A stretch of DNA of 43,832 nt. Source: Chloroflexota bacterium. Its GTDB lineage: Bacteria > Chloroflexota > Dormibacteria > Dormibacterales > Dormibacteraceae. Positions 1 through 24,056 of the stretch are shown here, one piece after another. Position numbers and translations under genes: made by a program. Below the pieces are notes generated by a model. That model saw only the letters and a list, made by a program, of their open reading frames with translations, made no database searches and was not told where the DNA came from. Location: NCBI GenBank assembly GCA_005881275.1, contig VBEF01000076.1:1-43832 (forward strand), written 5' to 3'. Positions within the stretch are counted from its first letter, which is position 1; every line of letters starts with the position of its first letter.

Positions 1-3000
1 ATTCAAGACCTTGGCTGTGGCGCCCGCGATCCCCCCGGCCAGTACATCCCGGAAGGGTCCATACGGCTCGCCGTCCTTTTCGAGAGAGCGGCCGGTCAAT
101 ACGAGCCAGCCCTTGGCCGCCGCATCGGTGGCGACCTCGGATGCCAGCCTCGACGCCCCGATGCCTGGAGTGCCGGTCAGGAAGACGAGTGAACCGCTGC
201 CCATGGCGGCGCGATCCATGACCAGGCGGATGTCGAGACGTTCCTGCGCGCGATCGACAAAACCGTCGTCAGTCGTCATCACGTGCTGCGTTTCTTTGAC
301 TTCGCCAGGCGTGACCTGATGCAGCCGCCAGCGGTCTGGGAATCCCTTGAGCTTGTAGCGGCCCCGGAAGTCGAACTTCATCTCGGAGGTGGGGCCGACG
401 AGCTGGCGGACAATTTCGGAAACGAGGATCTCTCCGCCCTTGGCCTTTCCCGCAACGCGAGCCGCGACGTTGACCGCCGCGCCGAAGATGTCGCCGGCTT
501 CTTCGACCACCTCGCCTGTGTTGAGGCCGATGCGGATCTTGAGCTTCCGTTCCGGGTTCTGCTTGCTGTATTCGGCGATCGCGCGCTGGATGTCGATCGC
601 GCATTCCACGCCGTGACGCGCCGACCCGAAGCTGATCATGAAGCCGTCGCCGAGACCTTTGATCCGGCGGCCGCTGTGCTCCGCGACGCGCTCGTCGATG
701 ATCGTCTCGTACGCCCGCATGATCTCGTGCGACGCGGTGAAGCCGCGCGTGGAAAGCAACCGTGTCGATTCCTCGACATCGGTGAACATGATCGTCACGG
801 TGCCCTCGGTCTGGCCCACCGCGAGGCTGCCGATGATCGTCTCAGCGGTCAGAGGAGCCGCTGCGTTGATGGGCTGTCCGAGGCCTTCGGCGATCTCTCG
901 CAGCAGGCCCTGTGAAGCGCGAAAGCCGGCTTCGCCCTGCGGGTACCGCACCGTCTGCAGCAGTCCCGCCTCTGCCGCGAGGCGCATCTCGCGGCCCGCG
1001 GAATCCTTGCTGATCTTGTTCTGGGATGCGTAATCGCTCGCCTTCAGCTCGGCGCCTTCGAACGCCTCGGTCAGAGGCGGTGCCAGACGGAGGCTGAGGC
1101 CCCGCCTTGTGATGATGCTTTCGATCACCGCCTGGATGCGCCGCGAGGCGCCTGCGGGACCGGGCGCGCCCTCCGTCCCGCGGACGGTGGGGAGCATGCC
1201 GCTGAATCCGTTGGAAGCAGCTGCCAGCTGGCCGAGGGCGGTCGTCGCGCGTGCCATCGCGGTTGCGGCCTCGAGCGCCTGGTGGGCGTGGAGGTCCGGC
1301 ACCTGCCCGTAGTAGGGCGGGGGCGTGGCGCCTTCGGGCAGCGGCGGGCCGGGATAAGGCTGCGCTGGATACGGCTGGGAGGGATACGTGACGGGCGCAC
1401 CCTGCGCCTGCGGAACCTCGGGGCGCTCAGCCGGCGCCGCCGCCTGGAGGTCGGCCACCGCGGCGCGAGCCGCGTCGATCAGCTTGCGCATCTCCTCCTG
1501 CATCTCAGGCGTCTGCGCCGGAGCAGCGGCCTGAGCCGACGGCGCGGGCGAGGCCGCCGCCGGGCGGTCGGAGCTGAACGGGACAACCACCACCTGCCGG
1601 ACCACGTTTTCGGTTTTGGCCTGGCCGGACATCAACGGGTCCTTGACGACGGGCATCATGCTGTCGGAGCCCGCGGGGATGAAGCGCGACTTGACCGGGT
1701 CGAACAGATCCCGGTTGACCTGGACCCCGTAGAACGCCGCCTTGTCGAGCGCAGTCGGCACGTAGCCGGTCGCGTTGTACTCCAGCCTCAGGTCGGGGCC
1801 CATGCCGAGCAGGAAGATGTCGCGCAGGATCGGTCCGTTCGAGTCATAGCCGACGACCTCGGCAATCTGCGCGACTTTCCGCCGGCCGTCCGGCATGCGG
1901 GCCTGATGGACGATGAGGTTGACCGCGGACGCGATCTGAGCTCGTACAGCCTCAAACGGTATGTCGATCGAGGCCATCATCACCATCGTCTCGAGACGAG
2001 ACAGCGCGTCCCGCGCGGAGTTGGAGTGGATGGTCGACATCGAACCGTCGTGACCGGTGTTCATCGCCTGCAGCATGTCGAGGGCCTCCGCGCCGCGGAC
2101 CTCACCGACCAGGATTCGGTCGGGGCGCATCCGGAGGCTGTTGCGGAGGAGCTGCCGGATGGTCAGCTCGCCCCTGCCCTCAACGTTGGCGGGGCGGTGC
2201 TCGAGAGCGATGACGTGCGGGTGGTCGATCTGCAGCTCGGCCGCGTCCTCGATCGTGATCACGCGCTGGTTGTGCGGGATGAACCGCGCGACCACGTTGA
2301 GCGTGGTGGTCTTACCTGAACCGGTGCCCCCGGAGACCAGGATGTTCATACGGCCCAGCACGGCGGCCTGGAGGAACTCCGCCATCGCCGGGCTCAAGCT
2401 ACCTTCGTGTTTCAGATCGTCGACGCCGAGCACCGCGTCCTTGAACTTGCGAATCGTCAGCGCCGGACCGTGGATCGCGGCGGGCCGGATGATCGCGTTG
2501 ACACGGCTGCCGTCGGGCAGTCGCGCGTCGACCATCGGGTTGAGCCCGTCGATGTGGCGCCCGGTGGTGGCCACCATGCGGCGGATCGTCTCGAGCAGCT
2601 GGTTCTCGTCCTCGAAACGGACGTCGGCCTTGGTCAGGACGCCGCGCCGCTCGATGAAGACCTGATCGGGACCGTTGACCATGATCTCGCTCACCGATCG
2701 GTCGTGGAGCAGGCTGTCCAGCGGTCCATAGCCGACCGCAGCGCGAAGGATGATGTCGGCCAGGGCCGATTTCTCCTGCGAGTTGAGGCTGATGCCGTCC
2801 TCGAGCAGGAAGCGGTCGAGGTGCGTGCGCACCGCTCGGGAGAAAGCGAGCGTGTCACCCGTCGTGAGGCCGACGTCGCGGATCATCGCGAGGCGGTCGC
2901 GAAAATCGTTGGCGAGCTTGTTGAGGTCGCGGCCCTGCCGCGCGGCTGCCTCGAGGATGTCGGAGCGGCGGCGCTGCGGTTGCCCCGGCGGTCTTGTCGT

Positions 3001-3444
3001 CGTGGTCCACATGTCGACGAACTGCATCTCGAGCAGGGACGGCGACGCGGCCACGGCGGGGATCACCCTCTGCAGCTCGGTGAGGCGGATCTTGATCGCG
3101 ATGCCCTCGCCCTCCTGCTGCACGCCCTGGTCGATGTAGGCGGCGATCCACTCGCCGTCGCGGAACCGCAGGATTGCTTTGCGCGAGGTCGACTTGTCGC
3201 CGGGATCGGCTTCGAGCGCCGAGTCGTCGAGGGAGCCGAAGACGATGTACTTGATGTCCCGGGTGGGGACCATGCGCGCGCGCTGGAAGTCACCGCTGGA
3301 ATAGAGAGGGAACCCCTCGGAGGAAATCGAACGAGCGTCCGACTCCCCTTCCTCGAGCCCACCGTCGAGGCGGTGAACCACGACCTTGACCCGCGGTGGC
3401 CGCTGATCCGGCGCCTGGAGCGTCTCCGTTATGACCTCGCTCAT
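1..3444 (-). CDS. CpaF/TadA-type secretion ATPase fused to winged helix, class III nucleotide cyclase and STAND-like ATPase (C-terminus cut by window edge)
   Basis: One open frame of 1148 codons runs from ATG 3444 to the left edge without a stop. Residues ~1-150 form a small beta-rich region, weakly like DUF6982. Residues ~160-590 are a CpaF/VirB11-type ATPase: Walker A GGTGSGKTT with K378, acidic box GEVRG with E448, His box STIHSNS with H473. A Pro/Ala-rich linker follows (~600-765), then a helix-turn-helix-like stretch (~799-845). The class III cyclase domain has FTDVEEST with metal ligand D889, GLGDGF with D933 and VNVAAR. The last visible part resembles the AAA/STAND ATPase that often follows such cyclases, but its P-loop reads GTPGIGASRL, with alanine for the catalytic lysine. 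CpaF normally powers Tad/Flp pili with TadB/TadC, which are not in this window. It is last in the STAS-led operon, 67 nt after the REC-GGDEF gene. No second gene start is needed inside the frame. An artefactual join is the main alternative. Confidence 0.85.
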   Translation of the reverse strand, partial: MSEVITETLQAPDQRPPRVKVVVHRLDGGLEEGESDARSISSEGFPLYSSGDFQRARMVPTRDIKYIVFGSLDDSALEADPGDKSTSRKAILRFRDGEWIAAYIDQGVQQEGEGIAIKIRLTELQRVIPAVAASPSLLEMQFVDMWTTTTRPPGQPQRRRSDILEAAARQGRDLNKLANDFRDRLAMIRDVGLTTGDTLAFSRAVRTHLDRFLLEDGISLNSQEKSALADIILRAAVGYGPLDSLLHDRSVSEIMVNGPDQVFIERRGVLTKADVRFEDENQLLETIRRMVATTGRHIDGLNPMVDARLPDGSRVNAIIRPAAIHGPALTIRKFKDAVLGVDDLKHEGSLSPAMAEFLQAAVLGRMNILVSGGTGSGKTTTLNVVARFIPHNQRVITIEDAAELQIDHPHVIALEHRPANVEGRGELTIRQLLRNSLRMRPDRILVGEVRGAEALDMLQAMNTGHDGSMSTIHSNSARDALSRLETMVMMASIDIPFEAVRAQIASAVNLIVHQARMPDGRRKVAQIAEVVGYDSNGPILRDIFLLGMGPDLRLEYNATGYVPTALDKAAFYGVQVNRDLFDPVKSRFIPAGSDSMMPVVKDPLMSGQAKTENVVRQVVVVPFSSDRPAAASPAPSAQAAAPAQTPEMQEEMRKLIDAARAAVADLQAAAPAERPEVPQAQGAPVTYPSQPYPAQPYPGPPLPEGATPPPYYGQVPDLHAHQALEAATAMARATTALGQLAAASNGFSGMLPTVRGTEGAPGPAGASRRIQAVIESIITRRGLSLRLAPPLTEAFEGAELKASDYASQNKISKDSAGREMRLAAEAGLLQTVRYPQGEAGFRASQGLLREIAEGLGQPINAAAPLTAETIIGSLAVGQTEGTVTIMFTDVEESTRLLSTRGFTASHEIMRAYETIIDERVAEHSGRRIKGLGDGFMISFGSARHGVECAIDIQRAIAEYSKQNPERKLKIRIGLNTGEVVEEAGDIFGAAVNVAARVAGKAKGGEILVSEIVRQLVGPTSEMKFDFRGRYKLKGFPDRWRLHQVTPGEVKETQHVMTTDDGFVDRAQERLDIRLVMDRAAMGSGSLVFLTGTPGIGASRLASEVATDAAAKGWLVLTGRSLEKDGEPYGPFRDVLAGGIAGATAKVLN

Positions 3445-3511: not shown

Positions 3512-4513
3512 TCAGCTGAAACGCTCCGGCGGGCGGCGGCGGTCGAGCACCCACTTCGATCCGGGCATGCGCTTGGCCACGCCCTTGACCTCGGACGCGC
3601 GGGCGGCCACCGCGGCGGCGCTGCCGTAGCTGCCGGCTTCCGCGATCACGATGCCGATCGACACCGACACGAGTGGCGTCCGCAGCACGCTGCCGCTCCG
3701 CTCCTCGGACTCGATCCACCCGCGGTCTCGATCGATCGGGTCATAGAGGGCGGGGATCGCTTCGTCGAAACGCCTGGTGATCTCGGTGGCGATCGTCTCC
3801 GCCATGCTTGGCTCGGTCAGGACCACGAAGTCGTCGCCGCCGACGTGCCCGGCAAAGTGCTGAGGCGAGTGATCCTCTTCGAGGACCTCGAGAATGATCG
3901 TGGCGAGCGTCTTGATCACATCGTCGCCGCGCAGGAATCCGTAGTGGTCGTTGTAGCTCTTGAAAGAGTCGATGTCCGGATAGAGCACGGCGAAGCGTTG
4001 GTTTTGAGCCAGGCGCCGGCTGATCTCGCGCAGGATGTCGCTGTTGCCGCTCATGCCGGTGAGCGGGCTCAGCCCGCGCGTGGTTGTCGAGCGTGACATC
4101 ACAGCCCGCAGCCTGGCCACGAGCTCTTCGGGCACGAACGGCTTGGTCACGTAGTCGTCGGCGCCGGAGAGCAGGTGCTCGACTTTGTCTTTGAGCGAAT
4201 CGCGCACCGTCAGAAACACGACAGGGATCAGGCGGGTGCGGAAGTCCTCGCGAAGCTCGGCCATGATCTGGTCTCCTGTCGTGTCGCCGAGCATCAGGTC
4301 GAGCAGGATGATGTCTGGCCGCCACTCGACCGCGGCGTCGTGTGCCGTGGCTCCGTCGTTGACCGTCACGCACTCGATGCCGGCGCGATCGAGAACGCGC
4401 TTGACGAGCCGCAGCACCTGCTCGTCGTCGTCGACGACGAGCGCGATGTCGCGGTGGACCAACGCGGAGTGGGGCCGGTCCGTCGGCGAGCCCGCCCTTC
4501 TCGCAACTGTCAT
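3512..4513 (-). CDS. Response regulator with GGDEF-type domain (variant GGDDF)
   Basis: This 333-residue protein has an N-terminal receiver domain (~22-138) with acidic pocket VVDDD, phospho-acceptor D72 in ILLDLMLGD and K124 in VTKPF. A C-terminal GGDEF-like domain (~165-325) carries the metal-binding DIDSFK...ND motif, and its signature reads GGDDF at 225-229. GGDEF domains make cyclic di-GMP from two GTP; the usual fourth residue is Glu, so the Asp variant may be weakly active or only bind GTP. I see no clear RxxD inhibitory site. The ATG overlaps the stop of the preceding DHp gene by 4 nt (ATGA), indicating translational coupling. The neighbouring histidine-containing protein is a likely phosphodonor (inference). 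Confidence 0.9.
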   Translation of the reverse strand: MTVARRAGSPTDRPHSALVHRDIALVVDDDEQVLRLVKRVLDRAGIECVTVNDGATAHDAAVEWRPDIILLDLMLGDTTGDQIMAELREDFRTRLIPVVFLTVRDSLKDKVEHLLSGADDYVTKPFVPEELVARLRAVMSRSTTTRGLSPLTGMSGNSDILREISRRLAQNQRFAVLYPDIDSFKSYNDHYGFLRGDDVIKTLATIILEVLEEDHSPQHFAGHVGGDDFVVLTEPSMAETIATEITRRFDEAIPALYDPIDRDRGWIESEERSGSVLRTPLVSVSIGIVIAEAGSYGSAAAVAARASEVKGVAKRMPGSKWVLDRRRPPERFS

Positions 4514-4740
4514 GCCGTACTCCCCGGGCGCGGCAATTTGTCCGTGAGGAGGATGGCGCGCTCCGCGGCCGTGCGTACTTCCTGGATGTCGGCCTTGACC
4601 GCTTCCGGGTCGTTGGTCTCTTCGGCGATCAGCTCGCTGTAGTTGACGATCACCGCGAGCAGGTTGCGGAACTCGTGGATGAGCGCCCGGCCGGAATCCT
4701 CGGGCAGCCGCGCGTTCACAGCCGTTTCACCAGCCGCCAT
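4510..4740 (-). CDS. Stand-alone histidine kinase dimerisation/phosphoacceptor (DHp, HisKA-like) protein
   Basis: The 76-residue protein is essentially only a DHp helical hairpin. It shows an H-box, ALIHEFRNLLAVIVNY, with H22 as candidate phospho-acceptor and the HExxN pattern also used for phosphatase activity in HisKA kinases, followed by a second amphipathic helix. It has no ATPase domain, sensor or membrane segment. It overlaps the upstream RsbW-like ATPase gene by 25 nt and the downstream REC-GGDEF gene by 4 nt, so the three are tightly coupled. Together they look like a histidine kinase split into parts, or a phosphotransfer protein comparable in idea to Spo0B. The start is fixed by the H-box position and the overlap. 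Function is inferred from the motif and context only. Confidence 0.75.
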   Translation of the reverse strand: MAAGETAVNARLPEDSGRALIHEFRNLLAVIVNYSELIAEETNDPEAVKADIQEVRTAAERAILLTDKLPRPGSTA

Positions 4741-5135
4741 TTGTTGACCTCGCCCTCGCGTTCGTAGCCGAGCTCGTCGAGAAGTGAGCGCGCCATGGCG
4801 AGGCCGCGACCCGCTTCGCTGTCATGCGCCGGCATCTCGCGCGTGAGGTGCTCGTGGACCGGGACGCCCGAGTCGCTGAGCGACGCCTCGACCGTGACGC
4901 CATCGAAGCGAAGCGTGTAATCGACCGGTCGCTCAGTGCCCGCCGGACGGCCGTGGGTGAGGACGTTGCTTCCGATCTCGCCGAGCGCCGTTTCGAAAAA
5001 GATGAGCGAGCGATCGTCTTGGGGGCGACCGATCGCCTCCCGCAGCCGCTGGATGGATCCGTGCAGGATGTCCAATCCTTCATCAAGGCCGGTGAACGTC
5101 GCGGTGAACTCAAAGCGGCGGTGATTGGACCTCAT
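4716..5135 (-). CDS. RsbW-like anti-sigma factor/serine kinase, HATPase_c fold
   Basis: The protein (139 residues) is a GHKL ATPase domain of the RsbW/SpoIIAB type. The N-box is visible as E53, N57 and H61 in GEIGSNVLTHG, the G1 box as DSGVPV at 88-93, and the glycine-rich lid as AGRGLAMARSLL at 108-119. This family phosphorylates a STAS antagonist and in many systems sequesters a sigma factor. The STAS gene lies 3 nt upstream, and a DHp-only gene overlaps its 3' end by 25 nt. No sigma factor gene is visible, so its target may be another protein, or the domain may act on the neighbouring DHp protein. Confidence 0.88.
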   Translation of the reverse strand: MRSNHRRFEFTATFTGLDEGLDILHGSIQRLREAIGRPQDDRSLIFFETALGEIGSNVLTHGRPAGTERPVDYTLRFDGVTVEASLSDSGVPVHEHLTREMPAHDSEAGRGLAMARSLLDELGYEREGEVNKWRLVKRL

Positions 5136-5138
5136 CGG

Positions 5139-5483
5139 CTAAAAGCCGGTGAGGGCTTCCTCGACTGTTGCGTAATAAGGAAAGACCCGATCGAGGGTGG
5201 TGAGCTCCAGGACCACGCGAACCTGCTGGTTGGGGGCGGCCAGGCGAAGCTCACCGCCCTCGCTGCCGCGAATCTGCTTCAGCACCGCGATGACCGAACC
5301 CAGGCCGGTGGAATCGACGAAGCTGACTCCCTCCATGTCGATGACGACCCTCGGCGGGCTGTTTTTCACGACCTCCGAGATCGCGTCCTTGAGCGCCGGA
5401 GCCCCGGCCACGTCGAGCCGCCCGGTGGGGGCGACCACGGTGACGCCGTTCTCCGCCTGGCGGGTCTCGACTTCCAAAGCCAC
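5139..5483 (-). CDS. STAS-domain anti-sigma factor antagonist
   Basis: This 114-residue protein is a single STAS domain of normal length. The phospho-acceptor loop reads FVDSTGLGS, with S58 as the residue normally phosphorylated by an RsbW-type kinase. In partner switching the unphosphorylated form binds the kinase and frees its client, and a PP2C phosphatase resets it; both partner types are encoded next door. It is the first gene of the minus-strand signalling operon. The start is GTG 5483, with a TATGCT hexamer 9 nt upstream and no Shine-Dalgarno sequence, consistent with a leaderless or nearly leaderless mRNA. TTG two codons later is a less likely start. Confidence 0.92.
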   Translation of the reverse strand: MALEVETRQAENGVTVVAPTGRLDVAGAPALKDAISEVVKNSPPRVVIDMEGVSFVDSTGLGSVIAVLKQIRGSEGGELRLAAPNQQVRVVLELTTLDRVFPYYATVEEALTGF

Positions 5484-5526: not shown

Positions 5527-5532
5527 TACACT
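5527..5532 (+). promoter_or_regulatory. -10 element for the REC-PP2C gene
   Basis: TACACT lies 2 nt before ATG 5535 and 8 nt before the in-frame GTG 5541. If it is the -10 box, transcription begins near the GTG and the true start is 5541. A second candidate, TAGCCT at 5518-5523, would instead allow ATG 5535 with a leader of a few nucleotides. Confidence 0.4.
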
Positions 5533-5534
5533 GC

Positions 5535-6674
5535 ATGGCCGTGGCCGGATCACCCGGAAGCGAACGTGTACTCGTCGTGGATGACGACGAGCCCCTGGCA
5601 CGCGTCATGGCGCGGATCCTGCGCAGCCGGGGTTTCGAGTGCGACGTCGCGCTGACGGGCTCCGAGGCCAGGCGCATGGTCGGGGTCAAGGACTACGCCG
5701 TGGCCCTCCTGGACGTGCGCCTACCGGACGAGTCTGGATACGGCCTGCTCGAGGAGCTGAGGGCGACCCGGCCCAACATCGCCGTGGTCATGATCTCGGG
5801 CGTCGACGACCCGGAGCTCGGCAGGGCCGCGCTCGACCACGGAGCCTTCGCCTACCACGTCAAGCCGGTCGGCGCGACACAGCTCTACCTGCTGGTCGTC
5901 AACAACCTTCAGCGCCGCAGCCTGGAGATGACCCATCGGGCCAGCCTGGACAGACTCGAGGGAATGGTCGCGGAGCGCGCCGAGCAGATGCGCCGCGCTG
6001 CGGAGCTCCAGGCGGGCATGCTGCCGCCAACACCTTATAAGGAGAACGGGTTCGAGGTCGCCGCCCATTTCACGGCGGCGCGCGAGATCAGCGGAGATTT
6101 CTACGATTGGTATCGCGCGACGGATGGCCGCCTCACCGTCACCCTGGGCGACGTCATGGGCAAGGGATTGCCCGCTTCGCTGATGATGGCCACCGCGCGA
6201 GCCGCGCTGCGCGGAGTCGCCGGCGTCGAACCGCTCGAGGCCGGCATCAAGCAGGCTGCAGCCGTGATGTCGGCGGCGCTCGAGGTCAACCACGCCTATG
6301 TGACGGTTTTCCACTGCACCTTCGACCCGCGGACCGGAGAGGTCGAGTATGTGGACGCAGGCCACGGGCACGCGCGGCTGCTGCGCGGCGCGGCGGATCA
6401 GGAGGCGCTTCCTGAGCGAAGCGCGCCTATCGGCATCTTTCCCGACACCAAGTTCCTGGTGGGCAAGGTCACGCTCGAGCCAGGCGATTCGCTGGTCGTG
6501 TTCTCGGACGGCCTGCTCGACCTCAGGCCGGACCTCGCGACCAAGGACGTGCACCTGCCCTCGGATGCCCGGCGCGCGGCGTCGGCGCAGGAGATGGTGG
6601 ACATTCTCGCCTCCGGAGCGAGAGACAAGGAGCTGTTCGACGACGTGACGGTGGTGGCGCTAAAGCGTATTTAG
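5535..6674 (+). CDS. Response regulator with PP2C-type (RsbU/SpoIIE) serine phosphatase domain
   Basis: The 379-residue protein has a receiver domain (~10-125; acidic pocket VVDDDE, phospho-acceptor D60, K110 in HVKPV). A short coiled linker follows (~128-160), then an RsbU-like PP2C domain (~175-379). Metal ligands are visible in ISGDFYDW (D188), GDVMGKG (D206), FSDGLLD and DDVTVV. Such proteins dephosphorylate STAS antagonists when the receiver is phosphorylated. It is divergent from the STAS/RsbW-like operon with about 50 nt between starts, so it is probably the phosphatase arm of that switch. The start is ambiguous: ATG 5535 is used here, but the -10 spacing favours GTG 5541, two codons later. 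Confidence 0.92.
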   Translation: MAVAGSPGSERVLVVDDDEPLARVMARILRSRGFECDVALTGSEARRMVGVKDYAVALLDVRLPDESGYGLLEELRATRPNIAVVMISGVDDPELGRAALDHGAFAYHVKPVGATQLYLLVVNNLQRRSLEMTHRASLDRLEGMVAERAEQMRRAAELQAGMLPPTPYKENGFEVAAHFTAAREISGDFYDWYRATDGRLTVTLGDVMGKGLPASLMMATARAALRGVAGVEPLEAGIKQAAAVMSAALEVNHAYVTVFHCTFDPRTGEVEYVDAGHGHARLLRGAADQEALPERSAPIGIFPDTKFLVGKVTLEPGDSLVVFSDGLLDLRPDLATKDVHLPSDARRAASAQEMVDILASGARDKELFDDVTVVALKRI

Positions 6675-22422: not shown

Positions 22423-24004
22423 CTACATTCCCAGAAGGGACTGAACTCGCAACGCGACCGAGAGGTTGAGCCGGGTTTCCGGGTCTTCCAGGTTCAAGCC
22501 GGTGATCTCGCGGATCCGGTCGAGGCGGTAGCGCAGCGTGTTCGGGTGCACGCGGAGCCTCTGCGCCGCGTGCTGCTGCTCGCCGGTTTCCAGGTAGGCC
22601 CGGAGCGTGGCGACCAGGGCGCTCTTGCGGGCGGCGTCGTGCTCGACGAGAGGACCGAGGTGGCGCCGGCTGTAGTCGACGAGGCGCTCGTCGCTGACGG
22701 CGGCGAGCAGCCCGGTCAACCCGAGCTCGGGCACCGCCACGACCTGCCCCCACCGCTTGAAGCGGGCCAGCGACTCCATCACAGAGGTGACCTCGCGCAG
22801 TGCGCCCTCGACGGCGCTCGGCGCCTCGATCGGGGCGCTGAACCCGACGGAGACTGTGAAGCCCGGCTTCCACTCGCTGATCGCCTGCTGGATCTGAAGC
22901 CCAAGGGCGTGGCTTTTCGCCTGGTGGTCGCCCACCTCCGTGCCGAGCGGCAGCAGCCCGACGACCTGGTCGGACCGGCCCTGGACGAGCGCGCGCTGGT
23001 AGCTGGCGCGCACGACCGCGGTGACCCGGCGCAGGAAGTCGCGCTTCAGAGCCTGGATCGCATCCTCGGAGATCTGGCGCGCGCGGTTGAAGCCGCGGAA
23101 GTCGTCGATGTCGACCAGCACCACGATGTGGCTGCCGTGGAGCGGATACCCGACGTGGCGGGCTCGGCGTTGAGCTGCGGCCTCGTCGCCATACGTCCCA
23201 TGCAGCAGGTCCTCGAGGAACTCACCCCGCACCCGTCCCTCGACCTCGGACAGCTCGCGCTCCTTCGCGATCGAGAGCGCCACCGAGGTGGGGGAAGGCC
23301 GGAACCTTGACCGGCCCGCGCTTGGCCTCGACCTCGCGCAGCGTGCGCTGGATCTGCGGGTCGAACAGGACGCGGTGCGGCGTGCCCTGGCGAAGGATCG
23401 TCTCCTTGCGGTGCGGGTCGGCGCTCCCGCCGGCGTGCGCGAGCAGGTGGAAGCTCGCGTCCTCGACCACGACGGCGCTCTCGAGCAGGTCGGCGAGCGT
23501 GCGGCAGATCTCGTTGACGCCCTTGCCGTCCAGCACGAGCTCGGTGAAGCGGCGGTGGATCTCGATCGAGCGTTTGAGCCGCCAGTGCTCCGCGTTGATG
23601 ATCCGTTCGAGCAGCGGCGCCATCAGGTCGACGAACTGGACGTCGGAGGAGATGGTGAACAGCGGCACCTTCAGCCGGTCCGCCTCGGTGATCATCTCGG
23701 GCGGAAGCCGGCGCAGGTAGGGCAGCGGGCGCACGACCAGCCCGGCGCCGCCTCCCTCCGCGATCCGCCCGACGAGGCGGATCTGGGCGTCGGGGTCGTC
23801 CTTGATCGGGAAGCCGCTCGTGAACATCAGGTCGCCGGCGCGTGGCTGGACCTCGGGCGTCTCCATGAGGCGGACCCACTCGACCTGGCGGTCCAGCCCG
23901 TCGGCGCCGGCGACGAGCTTGGCCGAAGCCAGCACCGAGCGCATGGCCTCCCGCACCGTCGGACGGGGCTGGTCGATCTCCGTCTCGAGCTTCTTGGCCG
24001 CCAT
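22423..24004 (-). pseudogene. PucR-family transcriptional regulator, disrupted by internal deletion and frameshift
   Basis: The first frame (ATG 24004 to about 23290) encodes the N-terminal PucR ligand domain (TVREAMRSVLASAKLVAG, ending ...VKVPAFPHLG). The second frame (about 23283 to 22423) encodes the remainder: ALSIAKERELSEVEGRVR, a central GGDEF-like regulator region, and the C-terminal HTH (HPNTLRYRLDRIREITG). Family members have some 35-45 residues between these parts, and neither frame contains them. So an internal piece is missing and the frame changes at about 23283-23293. PucR regulators control purine, amino acid or other nitrogen metabolism; its place directly before gltB fits a nitrogen role. 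The start at 24004 is supported by TAAGCT 7 nt upstream rather than by the longer open frame. Confidence 0.82.
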
Positions 24005-24011
24005 TAATCGA

Positions 24012-24017
24012 AGCTTA
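24012..24017 (-). promoter_or_regulatory. -10 element for the pucR-type gene
   Basis: TAAGCT on the minus strand lies 7 nt before ATG 24004, selecting this start over an upstream in-frame codon. Confidence 0.5.
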
Positions 24018-24037
24018 AGGTGTGAATGGGCGACAAG

Positions 24038-24056
24038 CAATCCCGGCTTGGGATTG
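24038..24056. promoter_or_regulatory. Perfect inverted repeat between divergent genes
   Basis: CAATCCC and GGGATTG form perfect 7-bp arms around a 5-bp centre, between the PucR-type gene and the zinc-ribbon-like gene. It is a good candidate operator for autoregulation. A hairpin in RNA is less likely, because it lies upstream of both predicted transcription starts. Confidence 0.5.

Follow-up and report, generated by a model that had tools for sequence, protein, structure and literature searches.

A CpaF-type Tad motor fused to a class III nucleotide cyclase and a STAND-like module in an uncultured family of soil bacteria

The window analysed here is a stretch of 43,832 nucleotides beginning at base 1 of contig C23 (VBEF01000076.1) of a metagenome-assembled genome (MAG) of 2.94 Mb in 127 contigs. 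On its minus strand, positions 1–3444 form a single open frame of 1148 codons, with an ATG at 3444, that runs off window base 1, and since this is also the first base of the contig, the C-terminus of the encoded protein is cut off; full-length relatives have about 1,600 residues (Table 1). An earlier note on this DNA had described one frame of this length joining a secretion-type CpaF ATPase, a winged helix, a nucleotide cyclase and a STAND-like ATPase. The frame is as described, although the contig end truncates a longer protein, and the residue numbers given for K378 (Walker A), E448, H473, D889 and D933 are all correct. Pfam matches in the window protein were T2SSE (227 bits), Guanylate_cyc (81 bits) and AAA_16 (48 bits).

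Table 1. Parts of the fusion gene and its upstream neighbours in the window
Feature	Position	Strand	Remarks
CpaF-wHTH-cyclase-STAND fusion CDS	1..3444	-	Residues 1-1148; ~450 C-terminal residues lie past the contig end
N-terminal beta domain	3055..3405	-	Residues 14-130; resembles DUF6982 weakly; the model shows a pair of small SH3/Sm-like barrels
CpaF/TadA motor (NTD + ATPase)	1720..2808	-	Residues 213-575; Walker A K378, Asp box E399/D400, Walker B E448, His box H473
Pro/Ala-rich linker	1141..1464	-	Residues 661-768; least conserved part, dN/dS 0.19-0.30
Winged helix domain	835..1140	-	Residues 769-870; ancestral to the fusion
Class III nucleotide cyclase	331..813	-	Residues 878-1038; D889, D933 metal; K929, D985 ATP-specifying; N992, R996 transition state
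AAA_16/STAND-like module (start)	1..261	-	Residues 1062-1148; Pfam AAA_16
Degenerate Walker A, GTPGIGAS	151..174	-	Residues 1091-1098; Lys replaced
REC-GGDEF protein	3512..4513	-	Motif GGDDF; directly upstream of the fusion
HisKA-like phospho-acceptor protein	4510..4740	-	76 aa; E=2.5e-5, just under the curated cut-off
RsbW/SpoIIAB-like kinase (HATPase_c_2)	4716..5135	-	77% identical to the scored L046 protein
STAS anti-sigma-antagonist-like protein	5139..5483	-	89% identical to the scored L046 STAS protein
REC-SpoIIE phosphatase	5529..6674	+	Divergent; start approximate

The N-terminal beta domain matches DUF6982 at E=0.09 in the window protein and at E=5e-11 in a related CpaF. AF2 gives a pLDDT of ~80–90 across it, and a fold search of the PDB with this model returned no significant match, only Tudor/Sm-like matches at low TM. 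Among solved structures the closest relative of the motor is Caulobacter crescentus CpaF (9e24), matched by phmmer at E=2e-99 over the NTD and ATPase, with the next family at 3e-45. TIGR03819 (TadA family conjugal transfer-associated ATPase) is still the best NCBIfam match, but its score of 329.6 bits lies below the cut-off of 373.15; we therefore file the motor as CpaF-type, on sequence and synteny, and not as a TIGR03819 equivalog. The CpaF motifs had been called intact, and Walker A, the Asp box, the Walker B Glu and the His box are indeed invariant in 21 sequences. The Pro-rich linker and HTH-like stretch that had been placed between motor and cyclase are likewise present, the latter as a winged helix modelled by AF2 as helix-helix-helix-strand-strand with a pLDDT of ~85. 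Unfused orthologues in sister genera end in a domain that shares 36–41% identity with it.

The cyclase domain aligns with the adenylyl cyclase Ma1120, its nearest relative of solved structure, with K929 and D985 opposite Ma1120 K101 and D157, the pair that specifies ATP (PMC4215837). All six cyclase residues listed in Table 1 are invariant among the sequences compared, including the two metal-site aspartates already singled out in the earlier note. That note left the product as cAMP or cGMP; because the ATP-specifying Lys/Asp pair is present, cAMP is predicted and cGMP is not expected. Besides this pair, the catalytic core and the metal Asp pair are shared with Mycobacterium avium Ma1120 (4wp3), which differs in not being a motor fusion and in having Ala at the Asn position (PMC4215837), where the fusion has the canonical Asn. 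AF2 gave a weak model for the C-terminal half (mean pLDDT 64, pTM 0.37). A fold search with it found Ma1120 and the STAND/AAA+ proteins CED-4, Apaf-1 and MalT at low global TM, as would follow from a multi-domain, low-confidence model. The source genome also encodes other cyclases, which are possible alternative suppliers of cAMP.

The STAND module, of MalT-like type, is only begun in the window; in a full-length relative, AAA_16 scores 98 bits, against 32.6, and a helical C-terminus lies beyond it. The earlier description of a STAND-like ATPase stands for the AAA_16 region and for its Walker B, retained as a LLIVLDDLQWAD-type motif with an invariant Asp, and fails for the Walker A. The latter reads GTPGIGASRL in the window copy, and its Lys is absent in 21/21 and 23/23 sequences, which have A, T, M, V or G instead. 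An active STAND ATPase was rejected because this Lys is missing from every relative, and the domain is predicted to be deficient in nucleotide binding or hydrolysis. Free cyclase-AAA_16-TPR proteins, which we take to resemble animal soluble adenylyl cyclase, are encoded in the same genome (e.g. L071:6559-9543) and share with the fusion the order of cyclase, AAA_16 and helical repeats. They differ in keeping an intact Walker A (GEAGIGKSR), and the fusion, which lacks the Lys, is 27–32% identical to them. The L071:6559-9543 gene (contig C52), which encodes a zinc ribbon ahead of the cyclase, AAA_16 and TPR parts, is convergent to a different Tad locus (CpaF, TadG, TadE and TadB/TadC) and is a second case in the source genome of a cyclase gene associated with Tad genes. 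At least five more CpaF-type ATPases are encoded there (C2, C29, two on C52, and C125), so that several Tad systems coexist.

The contig end removes any Tad neighbours from the window, and these were read from the loci of relatives. Downstream of the fusion, contig permitting, relatives encode TadG, TadE (on the opposite strand), RcpC, TadB and usually TadC. Upstream, genes for STAS, RsbW-like, mini-HisKA and REC-GGDEF proteins on the same strand and a divergent REC-SpoIIE gene precede the fusion in all 19 loci with enough flank, and REC-GGDEF was found in 20/20 fused loci with enough flank. Given the Tad genes on one side and the cassette on the other, the fusion is the Tad motor gene of this locus, which lies behind a signalling cassette. 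The GGDDF motif of the conserved upstream REC-GGDEF protein is an unusual form of the GGDEF active-site motif.

To gather relatives, 60 related genomes were searched and 35 loci retrieved. These included 18 closed single frames in 18 genomes, of ~1,476–1,848 aa depending on the start chosen and mostly near 1,600, at 74–88% identity; contig-truncated copies were also found. When contigs of GTDB r220 were scanned with a wHTH-cyclase profile, 26 named species-level genomes were recovered, and in 24 of them CpaF and cyclase lay in one open frame. Of the two exceptions, one is on a contig that begins within the linker and the other carries a frameshift in its CpaF part; in the frameshifted gene at L062:6924-10878 (G031; L098), the shift lies near residue 430 of CpaF and the CpaF-cyclase joint is in frame. 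All 26 carriers are MAGs from soil and belong to a single family, under the titles Chloroflexi bacterium, Ca. Dormiibacterota or Ca. Dormibacteraeota, and the next five profile matches are cyclases of 37–47% identity without CpaF in the same frame. The fused frame occurs in all seven genera that possess the module. None was found outside the family in samples of the phylum, a coverage in which a distant independent fusion could be missed.

Compared with five congeners, dN/dS was 0.015–0.027 in the CpaF motor, 0.03–0.07 in the winged helix, 0.05–0.065 in the cyclase and 0.12–0.20 in AAA_16; with the linker included, every part lies well below 1, indicating purifying selection. The closed and shared frames in relatives, together with these ratios in each domain, show that the fusion has been kept by selection as one protein, and they rule out a chance or misassembled ORF. 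Relatives that encode the two halves as separate genes, the other arrangement considered, were not found: relatives have either the fusion or a shorter CpaF whose last domain is the winged helix. The fusion is thus confirmed as a genuine, conserved gene.

The unfused form occurs in sister genera g6, g10 and g13 as an orthologous CpaF near TadE/TadG/RcpC(/TadB/TadC) where flanks are available. In g6 and g10 it visibly stops after the same winged helix, and the g13 copy is masked (N) there. The signalling cassette is absent upstream of these wHTH-only loci, again where flanks are available, and genes judged by sequence to be 6-phosphogluconate-dehydrogenase-like or DEAD-helicase-like occur in its place. 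Genera g5, g8, g12 and g14 had neither a fused nor a wHTH-only CpaF at the thresholds used. In the tree, the fused sequences form one clade (support 99/97), sister to wHTH-only CpaF. As the sister-genus CpaF lacks both the cyclase and the cassette, and the fused sequences are a single clade, the two appear to have been gained together and once; the simplest reading is a single gain, within the family, of cyclase-STAND and cassette onto an older CpaF-wHTH protein.

The fusion resembles C. crescentus CpaF/TadA (PDB 8rjf, 9e24) in its NTD and ATPase, in all catalytic motifs (E ~1e-99) and in its Tad locus context. A 2025 survey of 292 CpaF orthologues distinguished three classes by N-terminal differences only, namely no extension, a disordered region or an FHA domain (PMC12019362). 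The fusion differs from these in having a DUF6982-like N-terminal domain and, at the C-terminus, the wHTH, cyclase and STAND parts. The earlier note knew of no described family with this order, and the architecture is indeed absent from that survey; nor did we find a CpaF-adenylyl cyclase fusion described in the literature searched. CpaF-cyclase is a new domain architecture, well supported as a gene, and extends the CpaF classes by one defined at the C-terminus. In function, its nearest parallel is the Pil-Chp/CyaB system of Pseudomonas aeruginosa, in which type IV pilus activity is tied to an adenylyl cyclase and raises cAMP (PMC11656802). There, however, PilJ, ChpA and PilG lead to a separate cyclase and the motors are the type IVa PilB/PilT, whereas the fusion cyclase is covalently joined to a Tad motor. 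In known systems, the steps between motor and cyclase by which pilus movement or obstruction becomes a second messenger are numerous or unclear. The natural covalent motor-cyclase fusion is strong evolutionary evidence of a functional link: pilus movement and cell signalling look physically linked through one protein of 1,600 residues, in which the motor for extending and retracting adhesive Tad pili is joined to an intact enzyme predicted to produce cAMP. The fusion also suggests that cAMP signalling operates in a lineage of uncultured soil bacteria.

Any cAMP made could be sensed within the cell by cyclic-nucleotide-binding proteins, several of which are encoded in genomes of the family. The candidate reader is a ~425 aa MinD/TadZ-like protein that combines a cNMP domain, with the canonical phosphate-binding motif FGEMALISEETRTASVRA, and a MinD/ParA-type ATPase; with this motif, it is present in nearly all fused genomes. 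Its gene lies apart from the fused locus as an orphan, with HesB/ErpA-like and groEL genes as neighbours, and paralogues 33–46% identical to it adjoin CpaF in other Tad loci, where TadZ/CpaE would be expected. Two such cNMP-ParA proteins, in the source genome's other two Tad loci, were rejected as receivers: in the better of the two the phosphate-binding Arg is missing (NRSQQASV), and the second matches cNMP_binding weakly. For these reasons, the orphan paralogue alone is proposed. All ten genera of the family that have either a CpaF-wHTH or a fused CpaF possess its orthologue, as does g8; it was not found in g5, g12, g14 or the other families sampled. Since sister genera without the fused cyclase also have it, the protein predates the fusion and is not specific to it. 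The gene for this protein (L104:1357-2634; L139-L168) is conserved across the family, and the protein is called TadZ-like from the synteny of its paralogues.

We give about an even chance to the reading in which a Tad motor has a built-in cAMP synthase that reports motor state, with the STAND part as a scaffold and the cNMP-MinD/TadZ-like ATPase as reader. Class III cyclases work as dimers. If the fusion forms a hexamer like C. crescentus CpaF, each motor would bear six cyclase domains, or three pairs, and with six tethered, dimer-forming cyclases per ring, cAMP output may be tied to assembly of the ring and possibly to its state. The CpaF ring is a C2 hexamer that expands and rotates, its subunits moving strongly through the ATP cycle (PMC12019362, PMC11300603). 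We infer coupling of the cyclase to motor state: ring assembly, or the subunit movements of the ATPase cycle, would decide the pairing of neighbouring cyclases across the flexible linker, and cAMP produced at the base of the pilus would report whether the motor is assembled or what it is doing (extending, retracting or stalling). The STAND part, without normal nucleotide binding, could act as a scaffold or as an input lid for the SpoIIE/RsbW/STAS and HisKA/REC-GGDEF proteins, and the cAMP could be read by the cyclic-nucleotide-binding proteins of the cell, the TadZ-like ATPase being the best candidate.

A point against coupling is that the 110-residue linker could decouple ring state from the cyclase. 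It bears on a possible, if rather unlikely, alternative in which the fusion merely fixes the place and copy number of the cyclase, and the STAND part and cassette, not the motor cycle, set its activity. The length and fast evolution of the linker agree with this, as do the joint origin of cassette and cyclase-STAND module and the existence of the cyclase-STAND-helical layout in free proteins of the same genome, but the winged helix, with the linker and cyclase on either side, comes close to the cyclase in conservation, which suggests that it has a structural role beside the motor. More specific than the motor-state readout, and a doubtful step beyond it, would be a mechanosensory unit in which the ring gates its own cyclases and load or retraction is converted to cAMP, read by the TadZ-like ATPase, with the c-di-GMP/partner-switch cassette in the same locus. 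Signalling could also run in the opposite direction, the C-terminal half sensing or regulating, and nucleotide binding or cAMP there gating the CpaF ring so that signalling controls the pilus. The input-type proteins of the upstream cassette would suit this, c-di-GMP promotes Tad pilus retraction in Caulobacter (PMC6581867) and known CpaF variants add regulatory N-terminal parts (PMC12019362); yet Pfam detected no cyclic-nucleotide-binding domain in the window copy or in a full-length relative, and we consider this direction unlikely. A dead cyclase, retained structurally for dimerization or binding, would fit beside an already degenerate STAND module, but with six catalytic residues invariant in seven genera and a dN/dS of 0.05–0.07, it is highly improbable. 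An assembly or binning artefact uniting two genes, conceivable with genomes that are without exception MAGs and with a window that begins at a contig end, is already refuted by independent genomes: the same joint recurs, at 73–90% identity, in 24 of the 26 named genomes, which were binned separately and come from several sites and projects.

Farther along the window, a PucR-type regulator is split over two overlapping minus-strand frames (22423-23283 and 23222-24040), one holding the PucR N-terminal domain and the other GGDEF_2 and HTH_30, which points to a frameshift or an assembly error.
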